64,000 bases of DNA, taken from NCBI GenBank assembly GCA_021772075.1, contig JAETNQ010000001.1, forward strand, positions 62,001-126,000, written 5' to 3'. Positions 4,193 to 49,103 of this stretch are shown here, in pieces. The first letter of the stretch is position 1. Every line of letters begins with the position of its first letter. The notes under the pieces were generated by a model that saw only the letters and a program-made list of their open reading frames with translations, was not told the origin of the DNA and searched no databases. Both the position numbers and the translations under genes were made by a program. This DNA comes from Lachnospiraceae bacterium. Lineage in GTDB: Bacteria > Bacillota > Clostridia > Lachnospirales > Lachnospiraceae.

Positions 4193-5638
<1,446 letters not shown>

Positions 5639-9399: not shown

Positions 9400-10071
9400 T
9401 TATTTAGGAAGGTTTGCGATAGCATAATCTGCCTCTTCCTGGGTGAATCGCTCACCGTATTCAGAAGTAAGCTGGTCACGGATTGCTTCGGGAGACATAT
9501 CCATTTCCTGATAAGATTTAGCTGTTTCCAACGCATTTCTATTATAGTCTGTGACAAGATTGTCAACCGCATATTGTGCTTCATCGGCGGTGAATCGCTC
9601 ACCGTATTCAGAAGTAAGCTGGTCATAAATTCCCTGTTTAGACATAAACATGCTATCGCTATAACTTTGAGCCATAGCTAATGCATTTGCATTATAGTCA
9701 GCATTAAGATTATCCAAGGCGTATTGGGCAGCTTCGGCAGAAAATTTCTCACCATATTCAGAAGTAAGTTGATCGTATAAGCCGGCTTTTGACATATGCA
9801 TACTATTGCTATAGGTTTTAGCTTTGTTTAAGGCAGACTGATATTCACGTGGTACATCATCATTATTAGTATCAGCCTCATCTTCTGCATTAGAACCAGT
9901 TTCCATATATGCCATGTTGTCTGTTTCAGTATCCGCAATATTCGTATTGTCATTAGATTGTGAAGCTTGAGACGATGTGGCACTATCATTAGATTTATCG
10001 TCTGAATTTCTTCCAAACAGTAAAAAGATAGCCATAATAGCCACAATAACAATTATAATCTTTTTTTTCAT
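9400..10071 (-). CDS. membrane-anchored Ltp-family repeat protein, probable superinfection exclusion
   Basis: N-terminal TM segment, then three ~49-residue repeats containing YDQLTSEYGERFTADEAQYAVDNL; resembles Ltp/host-cell-surface-exposed lipoprotein repeats. Confidence 0.8.
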   Translation of the reverse strand: MKKKIIIVIVAIMAIFLLFGRNSDDKSNDSATSSQASQSNDNTNIADTETDNMAYMETGSNAEDEADTNNDDVPREYQSALNKAKTYSNSMHMSKAGLYDQLTSEYGEKFSAEAAQYALDNLNADYNANALAMAQSYSDSMFMSKQGIYDQLTSEYGERFTADEAQYAVDNLVTDYNRNALETAKSYQEMDMSPEAIRDQLTSEYGERFTQEEADYAIANLPK

Positions 10072-22336: not shown

Positions 22337-23880
22337 TGGCAACGGGATTCAGCGTCATGGACGCATTAAACAAAAATAGCAAGGCGGGCATCGAGGAGAC
22401 ACCGAAAGCGAGATTTCGCACGAAAGACATTTCGATTTTCAAGATGTACCGGAATGAAATGAACTTTTACAGTATTGCAGCGGTGGAGGAACTTGCGGGA
22501 GACATTCTGACATTCGGTCTCAAGCAGAATCTTGAGTTAGTATATGAGCCGTGCGAAAAAGGCGAATATAGGATTGTTGCAGGGGAGAGGCGTTGGCTTG
22601 CCCTCAAACTTCTTGTTTCAAAGGGATATAAAGAGTTTGAAATGGCGACGAGTAAGCTGACCGCACCGCAGGATAAGGACGAGGAGCAGGTGGAGATCAT
22701 CATTGCGAACGCATACCGGGATAAGAGCGTCACAGACATGATCGAGGAGGAAAAACGTCTCAAGGAATCACTGGAAAAAATGAAGGCAGCAGGAAAGCAG
22801 ATCAAAGGGTATGATCTCACATCCGGTCGGTTGCGGGATGTCATTGCCTCAATGCTGCACATGTCAAAGACAAAGGTTGCACAGATTGAATCTGTCAATA
22901 ACAATCTGATTCCGGAATTTAAGGAAGAATTGAAAAGCGAGCGTCTCACGTTTTCCGCAGCTTATGAACTGTCCGGAATGTCTGAACAGGAGCAGCAGGA
23001 GGCACTTGAGAGGTTCAAAGAATCCGGCGAACTTTCCCACAAGGACATAAAGACCATGAAAGGGGAAAAGACGGGGCAGCAGGACGTACAGAAATCCATC
23101 GGAGAGGGCGCAGAGATCACCACAGACGGGAAGAACAGGGCAGAGCCGGAAAAGAGTACACCAGAGACCAAAACGGGCGAAAATGGGGCAAATACAGAGA
23201 CACAGGAGGGCAATGAAGAGCATCCGGTAGTAGGTGACGAATATAAGACACCGCATCCGGAGGGAATCACATCTCTTTGCTATTCCTGCACAGAATACGA
23301 GACTTGCAACGTAAAGACAGGAACATGTACAAAGTGCGACCAGTACAAAAACCGATCGGAGGTATACAAGACCGAGGAGCAGCGTTATTCGGAGGAGCAG
23401 GATAGGATTGACAGGGAGACAGCAAGAAAACTCCGTGAACAGGCAGACGAGGAGCGCATGAACAATATTCCGTCCGCATCCGGAGAGAACGGTCAGAAAG
23501 TGCATCAGATCAGACTAGGGGCATCGTTTTTCGAGGACGCTTGCAGCAATGTCAAGAGTTTTGAACTCCGGAAGAATGACAGGGGATATAAAAAGGGCGA
23601 CATTCTTGAATTGATGGAGTTTGCAGACGGCAGGAACACCGGACGCATGGTGAGAAAGCTTGTGACGTATATCCTTGAGGACTGCACCGGACTTGAGGAC
23701 GGATTCTGCATCATGGCGACATCGCTTGTCAATAAGGACGGAGAGGCGTTGCAGGGTGCGGATTTGGGGCAGATATGCGCTGATATAAGGGCAAACGGCG
23801 ACGGCTACATTAACGGAGACGAGGAGTGCATATTGATTGACAAGGCAGTAGGAATTGTAGAGGGAGGCGGGCTTGAATGA
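22333..23880 (+). CDS. ParB-like N-terminus fused to Cys-rich segment and C-terminal DUF3850/ASCH-like domain
   Basis: YRIVAGERRWLALKLLV (ParB), LCYSCTEYETCNVKTGTCTKCDQYK, HQIRLGASFFEDACSNVKSFELRKNDRGYKKGDILEL (DUF3850-like). Confidence 0.82.
   Translation: MMATGFSVMDALNKNSKAGIEETPKARFRTKDISIFKMYRNEMNFYSIAAVEELAGDILTFGLKQNLELVYEPCEKGEYRIVAGERRWLALKLLVSKGYKEFEMATSKLTAPQDKDEEQVEIIIANAYRDKSVTDMIEEEKRLKESLEKMKAAGKQIKGYDLTSGRLRDVIASMLHMSKTKVAQIESVNNNLIPEFKEELKSERLTFSAAYELSGMSEQEQQEALERFKESGELSHKDIKTMKGEKTGQQDVQKSIGEGAEITTDGKNRAEPEKSTPETKTGENGANTETQEGNEEHPVVGDEYKTPHPEGITSLCYSCTEYETCNVKTGTCTKCDQYKNRSEVYKTEEQRYSEEQDRIDRETARKLREQADEERMNNIPSASGENGQKVHQIRLGASFFEDACSNVKSFELRKNDRGYKKGDILELMEFADGRNTGRMVRKLVTYILEDCTGLEDGFCIMATSLVNKDGEALQGADLGQICADIRANGDGYINGDEECILIDKAVGIVEGGGLE
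23101..23207 (+). repeat. linker-encoding DNA repeat, copy A (partner 48762-48868)
   Basis: GGAGAGGGCGCAGAGA..CAGACGGGAAGAAC.GGGCAGAGCCGGAAAAGAGTACAC... near-identical at 48762. Confidence 0.85.
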
Positions 23881-36063: not shown

Positions 36064-39000
36064 GTGGCACATACAAGCGTCAAGATTACCGCTAATTCAA
36101 GCGACTACCGGACACAGATGAAGTCGGCAGCGATGCAGATGAAAGAACTGTCAAGTGAATATTCCCTTGCAGCGACAAGGGCGAGGCTGACAGGTTCAGC
36201 AATGGACGCACTCAAGGCGAAAGCAGAATCCCTCACGCAAAAGGTCACTGTACAGAGAAATATTGTGCAGATGAACAGGGAGCAGCAGGAACGGCTCACG
36301 GAGCAGTTGGGAAAGCAAAAGACAAAGCAGGAGGAACTCAAAACAAAAGTCGAGGCTGCAAAGAAAGCATATGAGGATGAAAAGAAAGCTACCGGAGAAA
36401 ATTCAGACGCAACGAAAGCCTTGAAAGAGGAACTCGATAAACTTGAGCAGGAGTTTAAAGACAATGAGACCGCAATCGGAAAAACAGAAACGGCTCTCTC
36501 GAATCAGACTGCAAAGACAAACAGGGCAGAAACTGCACTCATGGAAATGGAGGCAGAACTTAAGGGCGTAAACAGTGAGTTGAAAAACCACAACCTAAAT
36601 GTGTTCGCTGATGCTTGCGGCAAGGAAGGTCAGAAGATAGAGCAGTTCGGAAAAAGGATGATGGTAGTTTCTGCGGGTATTGCCACATTTGCTACGGCAT
36701 CGGCAAAGATGGCGGTCGATTTTGAGGATTCCATCGCCAAAGTATCAACCATCATGGACGAGGGCGTGATGTCCGTGGATGAAATGGAGGATGCAATTAT
36801 CGGTCTATCGAACGAAACAGGGATTGCAGCCGGAAACATTGCGGACAATGTATATAATGCCATAAGCGCAGGACAGGATACAGCGGATGCGGTGGATTTC
36901 GTGAGGGAATCGACAAAACTGGCAATGGCGGGTTTTGCAGAATCCGGAGACACACTTGACATTTTGACAACGATTTTAAATGCGTATGGACTTGAGGCAG
37001 AAAAGGTCACGGAAGTTTCTGACATGTTGGTACAAACGCAGAATCTAGGAAAGACGACAGTTTCGGAGTTGTCGTCTGCTATGGGTAAAGTGATTCCGAC
37101 CGCAAACGCAAACAGCGTCGCACTTGACCAGTTGTGCGCCGGATATGCAATCATGACGGCAAACGGTGTCGCCACGGCAGAAACAACCACCTATATGAAC
37201 TCGATGCTCAATGAGTTGGGAAAGACAGGAAGCACGACCGACGTGATTCTGCGGGAAAAAACAGGAAAGTCATTCAGCGAACTCATGCAGAGCGGTTCAA
37301 GCCTTGCGGATGTATTGCAGATTATTGACGGGGCAGCAAAGGAAGAAAACCTCTCAATGAGCGACATGTTCTCGTCTGCGGAGGCAGCAAAGGCGGGTTT
37401 GATTTTACTAGGAGATAGTGCGGATTCTTTTAACGGAACACTGGCAGAAATGAGGCAGTCAACAGGTGCAACGGACACAGCGTTTGAGAAGATGCAGACG
37501 ACATCATATGACATAAAAATTGCAATGAATGAACTGAAAAACACCACTTTGCAATTCGGGCAGACAATCATGTCATCCGCTGCACCATTGGTCGAACAGT
37601 TCACGGAAAAGGTACATACATTATGCGAATGGTTTGGCTCATTGGACGAGGGGCAGCAGCAGACAATACTCAAGATAGGGTTATTCACGGCAGCAGTAGG
37701 ACCCGCAGCAATCGGAATCGGGAAGTTTGCACAGGGTATTTCATCGACGATTAAGGCGGGGCAGAAATTAGTCTCCGGCATTTCATCCATTATTGCAAAA
37801 ATTACGGCGAAAACGGCAGCGACGGCAGCAGGAACGGCAGCAGATACAGCGGGAACAGCAGCGACGGCAGCGCACACAGCAGCAACGGCAGCGGGAGCAA
37901 CGGCAACGGGAGGGATGACGGCGGCGCAGAAAGCTCTCAATTTTGTAATGTCAATGAATCCAATTATGAAAGTGGTGGCAGCGGTATCTTTGTTGGTTGC
38001 AGGATTTGTCGCTTTATATAAAAATTCAGAGACGTTCAGAAATGCAGTCAATAAGCTATGGGAGACAGTTAAAGCAGTTTTTGGAAAAGTTGCGGAGTTT
38101 ATTTCGAATGTATTTGGAAAAGTCAAGGAAGTTATTGGAAGTACTATGACTGCAGCGAAAAATATCGTCGCTGAAAAATTAGGCAATATGAAAACCGCAT
38201 ACGAGGAAAACGGAGGCGGTATCAAGGGTATCGTGGCAGCAGGATGGGAGGGAATCAAAGGATGTTATTCATCCGGGTTTACTTTCGTCGATAAGCTGAC
38301 CGGAGGGAAACTGACAGAACTCAAGGCAAAGTTTTCTGAAAAGACATCGGAAATCAAAGAAAAAGTTTCCGAGGGATGGACGAACATGAAAGAGACCGTC
38401 ACCTCAAAGATGACGGAGTGGAAAACGAACGCATCCAACAAACTGGATGAAATACGGACAAATTTCACGACAAAAGTGTCAGGAATACAGACCTATGTTG
38501 CGACGGGATGGTCGCACATGAAATATACAATCACGGCGACAATGCAGCAATGGAACTCCGACGCATCGGCAAAACTGGCCTCACTCAAGCAGGGGTTCGA
38601 TTTAAAGGTCAACGACCTCAAAACAAAGGTCTCCGAGGGATGGGCGAACATGAAAACGTCCATATCAACAAAGATGCAGCAGTGGAACTCCGACGCATCG
38701 GCAAAGCTGACAGCGCTCAAGACAAACTTTTCGTCACGGGTCAATGAGATAAAATCGGACTGGACGGCAAAATATACGGAGATTAAGGACAAAGCGACCT
38801 CTCTCATGGAGACAGCAAAGTCCAACGTAGCCACAAAGTTGGAAACGATGCGGTCAAACTTTTCATCGAAACTCGAGGCCATAAAATCAAACTGGTCAAG
38901 CGGGTATGAAAACATAAAATCGACGGCGGCTTCAAAGATGGAGGCTGCGAAAAGCAATATTTCATCGAAACTTGAAACGATAAAGTCGGATTTTTCGTCA

Positions 39001-39504
39001 AAGCTGAACAATGCGTTCTCCACCGTGTCCTCTGTCATGGAGAATATACGGGCAAAATTTTCTGAAAAGATGGAGGCTGCGAAAAGCGTTGTTTCCGGTG
39101 CGATTGAGAAAATCAAAGGATTTTTCAATTTTGAGTGGTCGTTGCCGAGCATCAAACTCCCTCATTTTTCAATTTCGGGGTCGTTCAGTCTGGATCCTCC
39201 GTCAGTTCCTCATTTTGGTATCGAATGGTATAAGACAGGTGGTATCATGACGAACCCGACCGTGTTTGGGATGAACGGAACACGCCTCATGGTAGGGGGA
39301 GAGGCTGGGGCAGAGGCTATTCTGCCATTAAGTGAGTTTTATGCAAAGCTGAATAACATGCTTGACCGGAAGATCAACGCAATCAATCAGCAGATAAAGG
39401 CGCATGTAGAGGTTTACACGTATATCGACAGCGATGAAGTGTCGAACCGGACAACGGAAAAGGTCAGTGAGAACCTGGCTGTCGAAAGGTTAAAGAGGAG
39501 GTAA
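36064..39504 (+). CDS. tape measure protein
   Basis: 1146 aa, coiled coil, TM and repeat-rich C-terminal half. Confidence 0.93.
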   Translation: MAHTSVKITANSSDYRTQMKSAAMQMKELSSEYSLAATRARLTGSAMDALKAKAESLTQKVTVQRNIVQMNREQQERLTEQLGKQKTKQEELKTKVEAAKKAYEDEKKATGENSDATKALKEELDKLEQEFKDNETAIGKTETALSNQTAKTNRAETALMEMEAELKGVNSELKNHNLNVFADACGKEGQKIEQFGKRMMVVSAGIATFATASAKMAVDFEDSIAKVSTIMDEGVMSVDEMEDAIIGLSNETGIAAGNIADNVYNAISAGQDTADAVDFVRESTKLAMAGFAESGDTLDILTTILNAYGLEAEKVTEVSDMLVQTQNLGKTTVSELSSAMGKVIPTANANSVALDQLCAGYAIMTANGVATAETTTYMNSMLNELGKTGSTTDVILREKTGKSFSELMQSGSSLADVLQIIDGAAKEENLSMSDMFSSAEAAKAGLILLGDSADSFNGTLAEMRQSTGATDTAFEKMQTTSYDIKIAMNELKNTTLQFGQTIMSSAAPLVEQFTEKVHTLCEWFGSLDEGQQQTILKIGLFTAAVGPAAIGIGKFAQGISSTIKAGQKLVSGISSIIAKITAKTAATAAGTAADTAGTAATAAHTAATAAGATATGGMTAAQKALNFVMSMNPIMKVVAAVSLLVAGFVALYKNSETFRNAVNKLWETVKAVFGKVAEFISNVFGKVKEVIGSTMTAAKNIVAEKLGNMKTAYEENGGGIKGIVAAGWEGIKGCYSSGFTFVDKLTGGKLTELKAKFSEKTSEIKEKVSEGWTNMKETVTSKMTEWKTNASNKLDEIRTNFTTKVSGIQTYVATGWSHMKYTITATMQQWNSDASAKLASLKQGFDLKVNDLKTKVSEGWANMKTSISTKMQQWNSDASAKLTALKTNFSSRVNEIKSDWTAKYTEIKDKATSLMETAKSNVATKLETMRSNFSSKLEAIKSNWSSGYENIKSTAASKMEAAKSNISSKLETIKSDFSSKLNNAFSTVSSVMENIRAKFSEKMEAAKSVVSGAIEKIKGFFNFEWSLPSIKLPHFSISGSFSLDPPSVPHFGIEWYKTGGIMTNPTVFGMNGTRLMVGGEAGAEAILPLSEFYAKLNNMLDRKINAINQQIKAHVEVYTYIDSDEVSNRTTEKVSENLAVERLKRR

Positions 39505-39507
39505 GCG

Positions 39508-40215
39508 ATGAAGATTGACGAGACAGACATCCGGACATTCAATGCGAAACAGTTGACCGTTGACTATACGCTGCCCTCAACGGCGGTCAGCGTTGACATG
39601 TTCGACGGCGCACTAATTCCGTCAGAGGGGGAGACGTACACGCCACTTTCGGGAGTGACGGTGGGCGTTCTGTTCAGAGGCAGGACGAGGGACGAAGTTC
39701 AGCGTTATGTCAGTGATTTCAATGCGATGCTGCAAAAGGGTGTTGCGCTCACACTGGACGGATATTCGAGGCATTTCAAAGGGTATATGACAGGGAACAC
39801 GCTCTCAAAGACCATCACGAAAGGAAGATACACGGCAGACTTTACATTCACGGGCTACTGGTTCAGCGATGCGGTGACGCTCACATGGGAGAACGTCAAT
39901 GAAATGGCATTCGAGGCAGCAGGAAACAGGTGGTCTCCGTGCAAAGTGACCATCACGGCGACGGAGTACATTGAGGAAATGAAAATCAACGGCTTTTCGG
40001 ATGAAATCATCATACATACGATACCGAGAGGGGCGACGGTCATCATCGACGGAGAAAAAGGATTCGTCACGATTGACGGTGAGAACAAGTTCAAGGATGT
40101 CGAGGGGATGATGGAGTTCCCGTTCTTAAAGACCGGGGAGGCAAAAAGCCACCACCTCATATTTTCGGATAAAAATGCAATCGTGACGATTGAATACAAT
40201 CCGATGTGGCTTTAA
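39508..40215 (+). CDS. distal tail protein (Dit-like)
   Basis: 235 aa after TMP; Dit-like. Confidence 0.8.
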   Translation: MKIDETDIRTFNAKQLTVDYTLPSTAVSVDMFDGALIPSEGETYTPLSGVTVGVLFRGRTRDEVQRYVSDFNAMLQKGVALTLDGYSRHFKGYMTGNTLSKTITKGRYTADFTFTGYWFSDAVTLTWENVNEMAFEAAGNRWSPCKVTITATEYIEEMKINGFSDEIIIHTIPRGATVIIDGEKGFVTIDGENKFKDVEGMMEFPFLKTGEAKSHHLIFSDKNAIVTIEYNPMWL

Positions 40216-40226
40216 GGGGGTGTAGC

Positions 40227-41237
40227 ATGGAATTATTCAATGATATGCGCGAAAAGGTGTGCAACCTGTCTGGAATAAAAGAAATCTGCATCATAAGCAC
40301 TTTGAAAACGGGCGACAAGGAAATCTCTTTCCAGTATCGGAAAGATAATACATACGCAAAGAGCATCAAAGAGGAGGCATATATAAGAACCGACGAGGAC
40401 GAGTTCGTCATCAAGCAGATTGAGCCGTCCGGAGACTGGTGTAAATGCAATGGTACGATGAATGTTGAGGAAATGGAGGGAAAGCAGTTCCCGACCGGAT
40501 TTGAGACCGTGGAAAAGACCGCAGAGGACTGCTGCAATGAGGCGATAGCCGGAACGGGATGGAGGGTTATTTCCTGCGGGGTGAAAAAGAAACGGACGGT
40601 CAGAATTGAGCAGAACTGTTCGGGGTGGGATGTGGTGCAGCAGGTCATCAGTACATATCGGTGTGAAATAAAATTCGATTCCATCCACAAGACAATCGCA
40701 ATCTATGAGCAGATAGGAGAGGACAGGGGAGCGTATTTCATGGAACGGCTGAATCTGAAGAAGTTGCAGATACAGTCGAACTCATACAACTTCTGCACGA
40801 GGCTAATCTGCATCGGGAAAGACGGATTGATGCTCAACATCGGGGGAAAGAATTACCTTGAAAATTATCAGTATTCAGGGAAAGTCAAGACCTGCACATG
40901 GAAAGATGAAAGATACACCGACGAGGAATCCTTGCGGGAGGATGGCGAGGCAAAACTGGATGAACTGTCAAAGCCCTATAAATCATATACGGCAGACATC
41001 ATCAATCTTGCGGAGGCAGTGCAGGACGAGGAGGAGAGAGAGCGTTATCGGGAAGTGTTCGACATAGCACTGGGAGACACAGTTCTTTTGATGTCAAAGT
41101 CAACAGGAATCCGTGAGAATCACCGGATTGTGAAGATGTACCAGTACCCGCAGACAAAGGCAAAAAACAAGGTCGAACTTGCGAACACAAGGCTTTCTTT
41201 CGAGGAGGTTCAGAAAACGGAGCAGGAATTGTCATAG
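40227..41237 (+). CDS. phage tail endopeptidase/Tal-like protein
   Basis: Synteny after Dit; prophage tail protein family features. Confidence 0.75.
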   Translation: MELFNDMREKVCNLSGIKEICIISTLKTGDKEISFQYRKDNTYAKSIKEEAYIRTDEDEFVIKQIEPSGDWCKCNGTMNVEEMEGKQFPTGFETVEKTAEDCCNEAIAGTGWRVISCGVKKKRTVRIEQNCSGWDVVQQVISTYRCEIKFDSIHKTIAIYEQIGEDRGAYFMERLNLKKLQIQSNSYNFCTRLICIGKDGLMLNIGGKNYLENYQYSGKVKTCTWKDERYTDEESLREDGEAKLDELSKPYKSYTADIINLAEAVQDEEERERYREVFDIALGDTVLLMSKSTGIRENHRIVKMYQYPQTKAKNKVELANTRLSFEEVQKTEQELS

Positions 41238-41253
41238 GCGAGGAGGTGAGGAA

Positions 41254-42096
41254 ATGCAAATCATAAGGCATATCAAGGTTGACTTATACGGGGCGGTAAA
41301 GCGTTTTGCGGTCGCTGCCAAACAGATGGATATGGGTACAAGGTACATCGGGGTAACGCTCATGGAGGACGGTGTCGTCTATGAAATACCGAACGATGCT
41401 GAAATTATTATCAATATGACAAAGCCGGACAGAACCCATGTCCACAACGACGGAGAGAAGTACGGAAACGAGGCACTCGTTCCATTGACCCGCAAAATGC
41501 TCATGGTTCACGGAACGGCATATTGCGAGGTGCAGTTGTACCAGTACGGCGCATTGCTGACAAGCGCAAATTTTGAAATGGAGATTTTCCCGTCGCAGAG
41601 GGATGAATCGGAGATTATACACTCCGGAGAGTACACGAGGCTTGAGAATACGATTCATGCTGCAAGGGAGGCATTGCAGATCGCACAGGACACGCAGAAC
41701 GCTATTGATGCAGCGGAGGCGTTGAGGGCAGCAGCGGAAAAGGCGAGGGAACTTGCAGAGCGGGCGAGGGAGATCAGAGAGAGCCGGAGGGAGGACAGCA
41801 CGGCGAAAATCATTGCAGAGTGCGCCGAGACAATACGGGCAGCAGTGGAGCAGACACAGGCATGTCTCAAGGCGACGCAGCGGGCAGAGGAGATCATCGT
41901 TTCACAGAGTGGGCTTGATGCGATACTGGCAGCAGTCCGTGACTATTATGAGCGCATCCGGCAGCTTGAGACGGACATCAACATCAATGTGGACGGAGGA
42001 ACGCCCACATCAACCGAACTGCTGCTTGTGGACGGAGGAACGCCGTTCACGACGGACTATGACAAGTACAATGCAGGAAAGCCACACACGATATAA
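41254..42096 (+). CDS. BppU-like baseplate upper protein
   Basis: IKVDLYGAVKRFAVAAKQMDMGTRYIGVTLMEDGVVYEIPNDAEIIINMTKPD. Confidence 0.75.
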   Translation: MQIIRHIKVDLYGAVKRFAVAAKQMDMGTRYIGVTLMEDGVVYEIPNDAEIIINMTKPDRTHVHNDGEKYGNEALVPLTRKMLMVHGTAYCEVQLYQYGALLTSANFEMEIFPSQRDESEIIHSGEYTRLENTIHAAREALQIAQDTQNAIDAAEALRAAAEKARELAERAREIRESRREDSTAKIIAECAETIRAAVEQTQACLKATQRAEEIIVSQSGLDAILAAVRDYYERIRQLETDININVDGGTPTSTELLLVDGGTPFTTDYDKYNAGKPHTI

Positions 42097-42114: not shown

Positions 42115-42606
42115 ATGGCGACAGCTACAATCCGAATCAAGAAAGGAACGACAGCAGAGTGGACGGAGAGCCACAGGGTACTTGATGACGGGGAAATGGG
42201 GCTTGAACTGACCGCAGACGGACACCGAATTATCCGCGTCGGAAATGGTGCGACGGAGTTCATGGATTTGCCTGTTTCTTTTGACATTGAGGAGGTCAGA
42301 GAAATCAAGACGGGCATGGAGGACAGCGTCAAGACCTATTATGAAAACATGGTTGAAAAGGGAACGGAACTGCTTGCAGAAATGAAAGCAATGGCGACGA
42401 CCATTGAACTCGAGGACGATGCGACAGGCATCAAGTACCGGATGGGAATGTCCGGAGGAACGATGTATTTTGAGGAGATAGAAAAAGAGACGACCGTTCC
42501 GGATGTTGGAGGAGGCGCAGAGGGCGGTGAATCCGGAGGAGGTTCAGAGGGCAATAAATCCGGAGGAGAACCGGACGACAGCATAGAACAGGAGGTAACA
42601 GAGTAA
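42115..42606 (+). CDS. receptor-binding/tail protein with Mtd-N-like domain
   Basis: ATIRIKKGTTAEWTESHRVLDDGEMGLELTADGHRIIRVGNGATEFMDLP resembles major tropism determinant N-terminal domains; TAATG overlap with next gene. Confidence 0.75.
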   Translation: MATATIRIKKGTTAEWTESHRVLDDGEMGLELTADGHRIIRVGNGATEFMDLPVSFDIEEVREIKTGMEDSVKTYYENMVEKGTELLAEMKAMATTIELEDDATGIKYRMGMSGGTMYFEEIEKETTVPDVGGGAEGGESGGGSEGNKSGGEPDDSIEQEVTE

Positions 42607-43835
42607 TGGCGACAGGCGATAGAGTATTTATGGCGAAAGAATCCACATCGCAGGAGATTCTTTCAAAAACAAATCAGATCATCGAGGCGGGAAAGGAAAA
42701 GCCGAAAAGATACGGCATGAGAATCAATCGTCTTGACAGCAATCCGGCGACCCGTGTGAAATATATTCTTGATGCGGTCGGGATGACACCTGCGGGGATG
42801 AATTACTCCGGAGGAGGGTTCGATTATGGAGACTGGGGGGATATTTGGTTTGTGAAGAACAACCGCCCCGTCATGCTGAAAACAGACGGAACGGTGGATT
42901 ATGAACTCAACCACGAGAACCACGCCTTGAAACTGACAGGCGGTGCGTCAGACATTGCAAAAACCTCATACGGCGGGAACGCAATGTCTGAAATTCCTCT
43001 GATTTGGGTCAAGCGGTATTCCATAGCAAATTACGATTATGTTATTTTCTGCGAAACACAGTATGATGACACATACAAGGCATATGCCCACACGGACGCA
43101 GACGGGAACATCCTGCCCGTGACGTATTTCCCGATGTATGAGGGGGCGGTCATCAATAACCGGATGCGTTCGCTCTCCGGTCAGACACCGACAGCGTCGC
43201 AGACGGACGCACAGGAGACAACGGCAGCGCAGCAGAACGGCGACAGGTGGGATAAATTATCATATTCGGAAATCAACCTCATGTATGAAATGTGTACCAT
43301 GATTTCATGCAGTACGAACTCGCAGACAAAATTCGGGAATGGAAACAGCAATTCGGACACATATTTGCAGACAGGAACGCTCAATGGGAAAGGACAGTTT
43401 TTCGGCAGCACATCCACGACGGCAGCAAACAAAGTGTTCTATTGCGAGAACTTTTTCGGAAATTACTGGAAACGGCTGCGGGGGTTGCTGCTTATTAACG
43501 GCGTGTATTACATCAAGCCTGTTCCTCCGTACAATCAAGAGGGTACGGGGTACATCAATACGGGGATGACGGTGAGCGGAACATCAGGAGGATATATCTC
43601 AAAGATGGAACTTGCGTCAGACATCGGCAGGATTCCAACCGCCGTGTCCGGAAGTGAAACCACATATGAGTGCGACGGGTGTTGGTTCAATAATGCGATC
43701 GTGGCGGTTGCCCTGTTCGGTGGCAGCCGTAGCGACGGCGCGAAGTGCGGTTTGTCGTGCTGGTCTGTGCACAGCCCTGCGGCGTCCGTGAGCGCGAGCC
43801 TCGGGGCGAGCCTTTCTTGTAAACCACCTGCATAA
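42606..43835 (+). CDS. DGR variable protein (C-type-lectin/FGE-like C-terminus)
   Basis: C-terminal VR encodes ALFGGSRSDGAKCGLSCWSVHSPAASVSASLGASLSC, matching the TR by A-only differences. Confidence 0.93.
   Translation: MATGDRVFMAKESTSQEILSKTNQIIEAGKEKPKRYGMRINRLDSNPATRVKYILDAVGMTPAGMNYSGGGFDYGDWGDIWFVKNNRPVMLKTDGTVDYELNHENHALKLTGGASDIAKTSYGGNAMSEIPLIWVKRYSIANYDYVIFCETQYDDTYKAYAHTDADGNILPVTYFPMYEGAVINNRMRSLSGQTPTASQTDAQETTAAQQNGDRWDKLSYSEINLMYEMCTMISCSTNSQTKFGNGNSNSDTYLQTGTLNGKGQFFGSTSTTAANKVFYCENFFGNYWKRLRGLLLINGVYYIKPVPPYNQEGTGYINTGMTVSGTSGGYISKMELASDIGRIPTAVSGSETTYECDGCWFNNAIVAVALFGGSRSDGAKCGLSCWSVHSPAASVSASLGASLSCKPPA
43708..43820 (+). repeat. DGR variable repeat (VR), 113 bp
   Basis: Ungapped alignment to 44048-44160, offset 340 bp; 14 mismatches all at TR adenines (8 G, 3 T, 3 C in VR). 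Confidence 0.97.
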
Positions 43836-43849
43836 GCTGCGTAAGCAGC
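43836..43849 (+). other. hairpin GCTGC-GTAA-GCAGC (GNRA tetraloop) 15 bp 3' of VR
   Basis: Perfect 5-bp stem, 4-nt loop directly after VP stop codon. Confidence 0.6.
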
Positions 43850-43858
43850 AGGGGGGAA

Positions 43859-43878
43859 CGGGGGGAGCCATCCCCCCG
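43859..43878 (+). other. hairpin CGGGGGGA-GCCA-TCCCCCCG
   Basis: Perfect 8-bp stem with 4-nt loop. Confidence 0.75.
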
Positions 43879-43889
43879 CAGAGGGAGGT

Positions 43890-43909
43890 TCGGAGGGCTT
43901 GCCCTCCGA
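43890..43909 (+). other. hairpin TCGGAGGG-CTTG-CCCTCCGA
   Basis: Perfect 8-bp stem with 4-nt loop. Confidence 0.75.
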
Positions 43910-43928
43910 GTGTTCCGAAAATTTCAGA

Positions 43929-43948
43929 ATTTCCATGATAGTGGAAAT
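43929..43948. promoter_or_regulatory. palindromic operator-like site, copy 3 (ATTTCCA-tgatag-TGGAAAT), between VR and TR
   Basis: Same half-sites and N6 spacing as 10383-10402 and 10413-10432. Confidence 0.75.
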
Positions 43949-44047
43949 ACGGTGCATTTTACGCACAAACAAAAATTATTGTGATAAAATCTCCGTCATG
44001 AATCAAAAGCCGATGACCTAACGTGACAGGGGATTCGGTGTGCGTCC

Positions 44048-44160
44048 TTGCCCTGTTCGGTGGCAACCGTAGCAACGGCGCGAAGTGCGGTTTGTCGTAC
44101 TGGAATGTGAACAACCCTGCGACGTCCGTGAACGCGAACATCGGGGCGAGCCAATCTTAT
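44048..44160 (+). repeat. DGR template repeat (TR), 113 bp
   Basis: TR to VR A-specific differences; Asn AAY codons in the VR-equivalent frame; upstream of RT. Confidence 0.97.
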
Positions 44161-44300
44161 CAATGACGGAGCGTATAACCAAAAGCACACCGTATTCCTA
44201 CACCGCAGGGCGTTGAAATACGCCTAACCAGTGGAAATTGTACCGACGCAGGCAGGGGCGAGTAAGTTCAGACAGAAAGTCCTTGAGGTGATAAGAAAGA

Positions 44301-45521
44301 ATGGGTAAAAAGTCCGTCAATAACCTGTATAAGCCCATGTTAGAGCATGGCAATGTTGAGAAGAAATTTCATACGGCAGCACGGGGAAAAAGCAACCGAC
44401 CGGATGTCGCTGCGATATTGGATCCGGATAACATTCAAACACACGTCAATCTGGTCATCGAGCAGTTATCCAATACCGCGCCGGATGGGTACAACGTACC
44501 CTGTCCGGAGCGGGCATGGAAACCGACGAACCACGGGAAAGTCAGAATCAACGAGGGAACGACGAAAAAGATTAGAACGATAGAAAAGCCAAGATACAAT
44601 TATGAACAGGTCATTCATCATATTGTGGTTTCTGCCTGTTATGGGATATTCATGCAAGGGATGTATGAGTTTTCATGCGGGAGCGTTCCGAAAAGGGGCG
44701 CACACTACGGAAAGAAATATATCGAAAAGTGGATAAGGATAGACGGGAAGAACTGTAAATATATCCTCAAGATGGATATTCGGCACTTTTTCGAGAGCAT
44801 TGACCATGGCGCACTGAAAGAATGGCTTGCAAAGAAAATCAGAGACAAGAGGATGCTGCACATCCTCAATCTGATAATAGACGGGGCAGGGAATCCCGCA
44901 GGGGATGACCGGAAAGAGGACAAAGGGTTGCCGTTGGGATTCTATACATCACAGTGGCTTGCAAATTTCATGTTGCAGCCACTTGACCACTATATCAAAG
45001 AAGAACTCCGTGCGGTGCATTATATCCGGTATATGGATGACATGGTCGTATTCGGCAGGAATAAAAAGGAATTGCATCGGATGCAGCAGTCAATCGCCGT
45101 TTTTCTGCGGGATCGGTTCAAGCTTGAAATGAAAGGAAACTGGCAGGTGTTCCGGTTCGAGTATGTCGAGCGGAAGTCCGGAAAGGTAAAAGGGAGGCCG
45201 CTGGATTTCATGGGGTTCGAGTTCCACAAGGACAGGACGATTTTAAGGGAATCCGTCATGCTAAGTTGCACGAGGAAAGTGAACAGGGTGTCAAAGAAAG
45301 ATACCATCACATGGTATGATGCAGCGTCTATCTTGTCATATATGGGTTATCTTACGCAGACGGACACCTATGAAATGTATTTGCAGCGGGTAAAGCCCAA
45401 TGTGAACGTAAAGAAGTTAAAGAAGATAGTCAGCAAACACTCAAAAAGAGAGGAGAGAGAAAAACGTGAAAGAATGGAAAGAAGTGTTCGGAACAGAAAC
45501 GGCGAAACCGGAGGAGTTTGA
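44301..45521 (+). CDS. DGR reverse transcriptase
   Basis: YIRYMDDMVVFG catalytic motif; GLPLGFYTSQWLANF fits the DGR-type GxxxSQ motif; adjacent to TR; no maturase domain. Confidence 0.95.
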   Translation: MGKKSVNNLYKPMLEHGNVEKKFHTAARGKSNRPDVAAILDPDNIQTHVNLVIEQLSNTAPDGYNVPCPERAWKPTNHGKVRINEGTTKKIRTIEKPRYNYEQVIHHIVVSACYGIFMQGMYEFSCGSVPKRGAHYGKKYIEKWIRIDGKNCKYILKMDIRHFFESIDHGALKEWLAKKIRDKRMLHILNLIIDGAGNPAGDDRKEDKGLPLGFYTSQWLANFMLQPLDHYIKEELRAVHYIRYMDDMVVFGRNKKELHRMQQSIAVFLRDRFKLEMKGNWQVFRFEYVERKSGKVKGRPLDFMGFEFHKDRTILRESVMLSCTRKVNRVSKKDTITWYDAASILSYMGYLTQTDTYEMYLQRVKPNVNVKKLKKIVSKHSKREEREKRERMERSVRNRNGETGGV

Positions 45522-45780
45522 TACGCAGCAGTCACCGACAACGGTGTATCAGAGACGGAACATAAAACGGGCGACAAAGACCGAGCAGGACGGAACGAAA
45601 GTGACCGGATGGCAGCGGGAGGAGCGTGAGTTGACGGTTGGGGAATACCATCAGATGATGCTCATGCAGCAGATTGTCGCAGAGAACACACAGGGAATCG
45701 TCGAATCTGTCACGGAGTTTCAGAAAGGGGCGGTCATCGACGAGTACACAATGCAGTTGATCGAGGAGGGAATCATCTAA
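45466..45780 (+). CDS. hypothetical protein overlapping RT 3' end
   Basis: 104 aa ORF; KEWKEVFGTETAKPEEFDTQQ... Confidence 0.65.
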   Translation: MKEWKEVFGTETAKPEEFDTQQSPTTVYQRRNIKRATKTEQDGTKVTGWQREERELTVGEYHQMMLMQQIVAENTQGIVESVTEFQKGAVIDEYTMQLIEEGII

Positions 45781-45932
45781 TGAGAATACTTGCGGAAAGC
45801 ATTAAGAGGTTGTATGCCAGCGCAAAGCTGACAAAGGCACAGGTTGACGAACGTGTGCAGAAAGGAAGTATTTCAGCGGAGGAATATGCCTACATCACCG
45901 GAGAGGAATATCCGGGCGGTGAGGGCGAATGA
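45780..45932 (+). CDS. XkdX-like small tail protein
   Basis: MRILAESIKRLYASAKLTKAQVDERVQKGSISAEEYAYITGEEYP. Confidence 0.7.
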   Translation: MRILAESIKRLYASAKLTKAQVDERVQKGSISAEEYAYITGEEYPGGEGE

Positions 45933-48476: not shown

Positions 48477-49103
48477 ATGTTATATTATTTAGGCAAAGGA
48501 ACGGAGTTCAAGAAAGAGGAGTGCAAGGAATACAAGACCGCCGAGGGGGTGTTGCGGGCAGCGGCAAAGGACGAGGAGTTCGTGGTGTGGGATGAAACAG
48601 GAAAGATCGTCGGAGGGCTGACTGACAATGTTCCGGAGGGAGCGTTAAAAACGAATCCGGACGGCAGTGTTCCGATGTTTGATGAAAGCGGTTATCCGAT
48701 CGGAACGGTGGATGCAGCGACGGTCGCATCGGTTATAGGAGAGGAAGAACGGAAAGCTGCCGGAGAGGGCGCAGAGACAGGCACAGACGGGAAGAACGGG
48801 GCAGAGCCGGAAAAGAGTACACAGAAGACCGAAAACGCCGGAAATGGGGCAAATACAAAGCCGGAGGAAAGTGGGACTGTTATTCCGCAGGGAACAATGA
48901 GAGTGACGGTGATTTGCGACGGCACACTAAACTTGAGACGTTCGGCAGACTGGGGGAACGAAAATATTTGCGGTCGTGCATCACGGGGGCAGTCATATTA
49001 TGTGAAAGCGATTCATACCGTGCAGGGAAAGAAGATGGTGCAGACGATTGATGACATTTATCTGTCCGGACAGTCTGAACATGTACAGTTTGAGCAGTTA
49101 TAA
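48477..49103 (+). CDS. hypothetical protein with C-terminal SH3-like domain and shared linker repeat
   Basis: GTMRVTVICDGTLNLRRSADWGNENICGRASRGQSYYVKAIHTV. Confidence 0.65.
   Translation: MLYYLGKGTEFKKEECKEYKTAEGVLRAAAKDEEFVVWDETGKIVGGLTDNVPEGALKTNPDGSVPMFDESGYPIGTVDAATVASVIGEEERKAAGEGAETGTDGKNGAEPEKSTQKTENAGNGANTKPEESGTVIPQGTMRVTVICDGTLNLRRSADWGNENICGRASRGQSYYVKAIHTVQGKKMVQTIDDIYLSGQSEHVQFEQL
48762..48868 (+). repeat. linker-encoding DNA repeat, copy B (partner 23101-23207)
   Basis: Near-identical DNA to copy A. Confidence 0.85.

Follow-up and report, generated by a model that had tools for sequence, protein, structure and literature searches.

The DGR (diversity-generating retroelement) of phage BPP-1 has the gene order mtd-avd-TR-brt, where TR is the template repeat, and its Avd protein is essential (PMC12875486). 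DGRs without Avd have already been reported: Avd is absent from Faecalibacterium phage FP_Epona, for which another protein was suggested as a possible stand-in (PMC5883640). We analyzed a stretch of 64,000 nt from Lachnospiraceae bacterium GCA_021772075.1 (contig JAETNQ010000001.1, 62,001-126,000 of the forward strand), called here the window, to which all coordinates refer. It very probably carries an intact phage DGR, Avd-less like those of Epona and Arawn, which diversifies the tip of a tail fibre. The initial annotation had identified the locus as a DGR, and this is supported by the TR and variable repeat (VR), the reverse transcriptase (RT), the fold of the variable protein (VP), an RT-4-type spacer RNA and hairpins. 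It had also described the element as complete; VP, VR, TR and RT are indeed all present (Table 1) but avd is lacking.

The window DGR shares with that of BPP-1 the restriction of TR/VR mismatches to adenines, the IMH/IMH* pair, a hairpin after the VR and a DGR RT, as well as a VR at the C-terminus of a receptor-binding protein of C-type lectin fold and a structured spacer of about 140 nt. In contrast to the BPP-1 cassette, it contains no avd, has three to four hairpins whose loops are not GRNA, and carries its Mtd_N-like domain on a separate upstream gene. The spacers occupy equivalent places but differ in type, Phage_DGR (RF03022) in BPP-1 and RT-4/RT-18-like in the window.

Another counterpart is FP_Epona, which has the same order of fibre with partner gene, VP, TR, RT, XkdW-position gene and XkdX. 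The two RTs are 40% identical, neither element has Avd (for Epona, see PMC5883640), and the Epona spacer is of the RT-4 type, whereas host and tail type differ and the VPs are only 29% identical. The RTs of Butyrivibrio phages Arawn/Idris and Lactobacillus phage LBR48, which are otherwise divergent phages, are 37-46% identical to the window RT. Arawn shows the same A-only TR/VR mismatches, and both Arawn and LBR48 are without Avd; LBR48 has an RT-18 spacer, and its record stops short of the VP gene, leaving the VR outside.

Table 1. Genes, repeats and RNA or DNA structures of the DGR and its tail-module neighbourhood (window positions)
Feature	Position	Strand	Evidence or remark
Tape measure	36064-39504		upstream of VP
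Endopeptidase tail gene	40206-41237		upstream of VP
BppU_N-like gene	41179-42096		upstream of VP
Partner fibre protein, 163 aa, Mtd_N-like N-terminal domain	42115-42606	+	PF18454 Mtd_N E 1.2e-5, 25.5 bits, just under cut-off 26.3
VP, variable tail-fibre / receptor-binding protein, 409 aa, VR at C-terminus	42606-43835	+	phrog_5302 tail protein E 3.7e-121
VR (variable repeat)	43708-43820	+	TR alignment; 3' part is the IMH
IMH region, 3' end of VR	43803-43830	+	43813, 43814 and 43819 differ from TR in all close cassettes; outer boundaries approximate
Hairpin 1, GCTGC-GTAA-GCAGC	43836-43849	+	in relatives, VP stop codon TAA in loop
Hairpin 2, CGGGGGGA-GCCA-TCCCCCCG	43859-43878	+	compensating stem changes in relatives
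Hairpin 3, TCGGAGGG-CTTG-CCCTCCGA	43890-43909	+	in relatives, stem invariant, 4-nt loops differ
Hairpin 4, ATTTCCA-TGATAG-TGGAAAT	43929-43948	+	DNA fold
TR (template repeat), non-coding, IMH* at 3' end	44048-44160	+	VR alignment; single copy
Structured spacer RNA of TR transcript, Rfam RT-4/RT-18 type	44199-44296	+	Rfam scores, covariation
DGR reverse transcriptase, 406 aa	44301-45521	+	RVT_1 E 8.7e-19; phrog_1423 E 2.6e-94; PDB 8ub7
Tail-module gene in XkdW position, 104 aa	45466-45780	+	overlaps RT 3' end
XkdX	45780-45932		PF09693

The DGR resides in a serine-integrase prophage of about 41 kb, which extends from the integrase gene on the minus strand at about 7.8 kb to about 49.1 kb and is flanked by a PGI-like gene and an FtsX-type permease gene. 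Its terminase, portal, protease, capsid, tape measure and endolysin modules are intact. No clear repeat that could represent att sites flanks the prophage, as expected with a serine integrase. The VP gene had been placed at the tail-fibre/baseplate end of the tail module, and it does lie there, downstream of the tape measure, endopeptidase, BppU_N-like and Mtd_N-like genes, its start overlapping the stop of the partner fibre gene. An RT like that of the window DGR was found in 6 of 397 sampled genomes of the bacterial family, the present one included (E <= 1e-80), a distribution expected of a mobile element. Adjoining the serine integrase, the prophage has a gene of Ltp lipoprotein / superinfection-exclusion type (9400-10071, minus strand), and a 127-bp direct repeat, 81% identical between its copies (23081-23207 and 48742-48868), is carried by two prophage genes, one towards either end of the element. 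The same genome harbors two Avd-type DGRs outside the window, on contigs C41 (~4.0-7.5 kb) and C102 (~105-109 kb), and thus has three DGRs of two types.

The gap-free alignment of VR and TR, offset by 340 bp, spans 113 bp and contains 14 mismatches, each of them at an adenine of the TR (eight A>G, three A>T and three A>C), exactly as the initial annotation had reported. With a TR composition of 24 A, 24 T, 30 C and 35 G, 14 randomly placed mismatches would all fall on A with a probability of 7e-12. Both repeats are present in one copy each in the genome, which contains no remote second VR elsewhere. The reading of all 14 mismatches as products of DGR mutagenesis holds for 11 of them but not for those at 43813, 43814 and 43819. 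These three are fixed alike in all eight close cassettes that were compared (TR CC[A/T]ATCTTAT versus VR CCT[T/C]TCTTG[T/C]) and therefore represent differences between IMH and IMH* rather than hypermutation; such an IMH in the VR, with a variant IMH* in the TR, is one of the marks of a DGR. No close cassette has a change at the adenine in TR position 102. The hypervariable core (43725-43800) comprises 20 adenines in 12 codons within VP residues 374-399; it can encode about 5.7e11 different proteins, and a stop codon is reachable at a single codon.

In the cores of the eight close cassettes, mismatches occupy 91 of 187 A sites versus 3 of 653 non-A sites (Fisher p 1.6e-64). The VRs thus agree with the TRs of their own cassettes at 650 of the 653 non-adenine sites while the TRs differ among phages, a case of concerted evolution such as repeated TR-to-VR copying would give. 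Cassettes L032 and L034 have identical TRs although they are 79% identical at the DNA level: their VRs differ at 13 positions, 13 of 13 at TR adenines. This alignment across related genomes, proposed in the initial annotation as a check, accordingly places the variation at TR-A sites, and neither VR variation spread evenly over non-A positions nor loss of RT catalytic residues, either of which was to speak against a DGR, was found. A repeat search that treated all mismatches equally gave a mismatch rate of 57% at TR adenines and 0.6-1.9% at the other bases in 63 related cassettes; 965 of the 1030 mismatches at these loci were at A, always ahead of a DGR RT of this type. An A-weighted search gave 65 cassettes, all of them in the order VR-TR-RT; because its design favours A, the share of A in its mismatches is not counted as evidence. 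Applied to BPP-1 as a control, the TR/VR finder placed 17 of 17 mismatches at A.

VP has no match in Pfam. Its AlphaFold model reached a pLDDT of 94 with 72 homologues (55 with 16 sequences), and the eight best PDB matches of the model are exclusively DGR variable proteins, namely TaqVP (5vf4, E 1.2e-10) and the Mtd variants of BPP-1 (1yu0-1yu4). Over the whole chain, the TM-score is 0.45-0.5 with TaqVP and about 0.3 with Mtd; the likeness therefore covers the domains and their order, not the entire chain. In the model, the VP fold is that of a Mtd/TaqVP-like C-type lectin and the VR is C-terminal, the combination that characterizes DGR variable proteins. Fold and position in the tail module both suggest that VP could switch host-receptor tropism.

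An RT with YMDD and LGFYTSQ motifs 140 bp after the TR had been noted initially, and its ORF start, spacing and both motifs were reproduced. Catalytic residue D159, the YMDD aspartates D246/D247 and LPLGFYTSQ are all intact, and YMDD and LGFYTSQ are invariant or nearly so among the 13 RTs aligned. The enzyme thus combines the features by which a DGR RT is recognized: its gene lies next to the TR, its catalytic site is intact and it has the [I/L]GxxxSQ motif. Its closest PDB sequence match is the BPP-1 bRT (E 4.1e-18), to which it is 26% identical. Neither a sigma-70 promoter nor a terminator was detected on the plus strand between VP and RT.

The spacer between TR and RT scores 66.5 bits (E 2.5e-11) against RT-4 (RF03025), just below the gathering threshold of 73.5, and 33.7 bits against RT-18 (RF03021; gathering threshold 41.3). 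It agrees with RT-4 in structure and core sequence, except that one hairpin of RT-4 is missing (19 positions absent). Among the relatives, 11 have above-gathering matches: the Epona spacer reaches 124.4 bits for RT-4, and 10 others exceed the threshold for RT-18. All of these matches lie between the TR (in LBR48, the record start) and the DGR RT; judging from this placement, RF03025 and RF03021 seem to represent the spacer part of template RNAs of DGRs. When the RT-4 pairs are mapped onto eight relatives, 99.3% are paired, versus at most 44% when the pairs are slid, and four pairs are changed on both sides. The single-sequence RNA fold of the window spacer is no better than those of shuffled sequences (z -0.5), so the assignment of a structure rests on Rfam and covariation.

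The region 3' of the VR, with its three to four hairpins, folds as DNA far above shuffles (z -4.64). Hairpins of DGRs stand just downstream of the VR and have a stem of 7-10 bp and a 4-nt loop. Hairpin 2, which has an 8-bp stem and a 4-nt loop and stands 38 nt beyond the final position matching between TR and VR (distances of 4-34 have been described), is the best candidate for the target-site hairpin; its stem is kept among relatives via compensating changes, e.g., CGGAGGGG-NNNN-CCCCTCCG. A GRNA loop has been described for the hairpins in a sample of phage DGRs (PMC3240598) and is not a definitive feature; no such loop is present in the window hairpins, whose loops are GTAA, GCCA and CTTG.

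Searches with bAvd (PF22296) and phrog_3206, which found Avd in the BPP-1 positive control, detected no avd on the prophage contig and no Avd in the genomes of Epona, Arawn and LBR48. Nor is there one hidden in the cassette: the 213 nt between the VP stop and the TR contain no ORF, and this gap, which does not exceed 283 nt in 62 of 65 cassettes, is too small for avd (387 nt). An HMM search found no Avd near the RT in relatives, with the exception of one contig (L212). There, an Avd-type gene (4686-5144) lies about 0.6 kb downstream of the RT of an Avd-less cassette and perhaps belongs to a second DGR of the same phage.

Together with the non-GRNA loops and a spacer score just under the RT-4 gathering threshold, the lack of Avd was counted against an intact DGR, and several other explanations have to be weighed. 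Avd might be supplied in trans by the DGRs on contigs C41 and C102, both of which encode Avd-like proteins (phrog_3206 E 2.6e-15 and 1.2e-9) and SQ/YMDD RTs and have A-only TR/VR pairs (8/8 and 12/12 mismatches). We consider this unlikely: the cultured relatives Epona, Arawn and LBR48 have no Avd in their own genomes, in agreement with the published description of Epona (PMC5883640); the window RT groups with their RTs, while those of C41 and C102 are distant and were missed by the RT search; and nothing guarantees that a given host provides Avd to a mobile prophage. Even less probable is that the 104-aa gene overlapping the RT end encodes an unrecognized accessory protein in place of Avd. This gene overlaps the RT in most relatives, and 7 of 7 phage records with a homologue also carry an RT of this type, but it precedes XkdX, and its homologue is found directly behind the VP gene in RT-less relatives (e.g., L139, L125 and L145), which identifies it as a tail gene in the XkdW position and not part of the DGR. 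VP relatives without an RT in the stretch covered number seven, the XkdW-position gene following the fibre gene, and the TR-RT cassette seems to have been gained or lost between these two genes.

The absence of Avd would also fit a decayed DGR, a dead element whose VR differences are relics of past homing; moreover, the element comes from a single genome. Such decay is improbable, given an RT of full length with all catalytic residues, spacer RNA pairing that is kept in relatives, and agreement of the VR with its own TR at 84 of 84 non-A core positions despite TR divergence among phages, which points to homing after that divergence. An origin of TR and VR by ordinary duplication, with an A bias due to chance or another mutator, is refuted by the probability calculated for the window, the mismatches at the 63 loci and the L032/L034 pair, and deserves practically no credence. 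We conclude that the window DGR is genuine and probably working, and it may well be active at present, as its sequence suggests.

In the proposed mechanism, the TR and the RT-4-type spacer would be transcribed as a single RNA, and the prophage RT would bind the spacer structure, presumably working without Avd, and make a cDNA of the TR, misincorporating opposite template adenines. The cDNA would then be integrated in place of the VR core upstream of the IMH, guided by the IMH and the hairpins just downstream. Up to 12 residues on the C-type-lectin tip of the tail fibre would be randomized, giving the ~5.7e11 proteins calculated above, and progeny phages could thereby bind different host surface receptors.

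We tentatively propose, at somewhat less than an even chance, that the Epona/Arawn/RT-4-RT-18 lineage represents a type of DGR that needs only the RT and a structured TR-spacer RNA, and neither Avd nor a substitute. If true, Rfam RT-4 and RT-18 would be the template RNA of an Avd-independent lineage. The two Avd-type DGRs beside the Avd-less one provide a built-in comparison within one genome. The window element is a further, well-supported example of a gut Firmicutes prophage in which a receptor-binding protein is hypermutated in a targeted way. Its lineage is without the usual helper Avd and has a recognized Rfam structure as its spacer RNA, so that the question of what replaces Avd becomes open to direct test.
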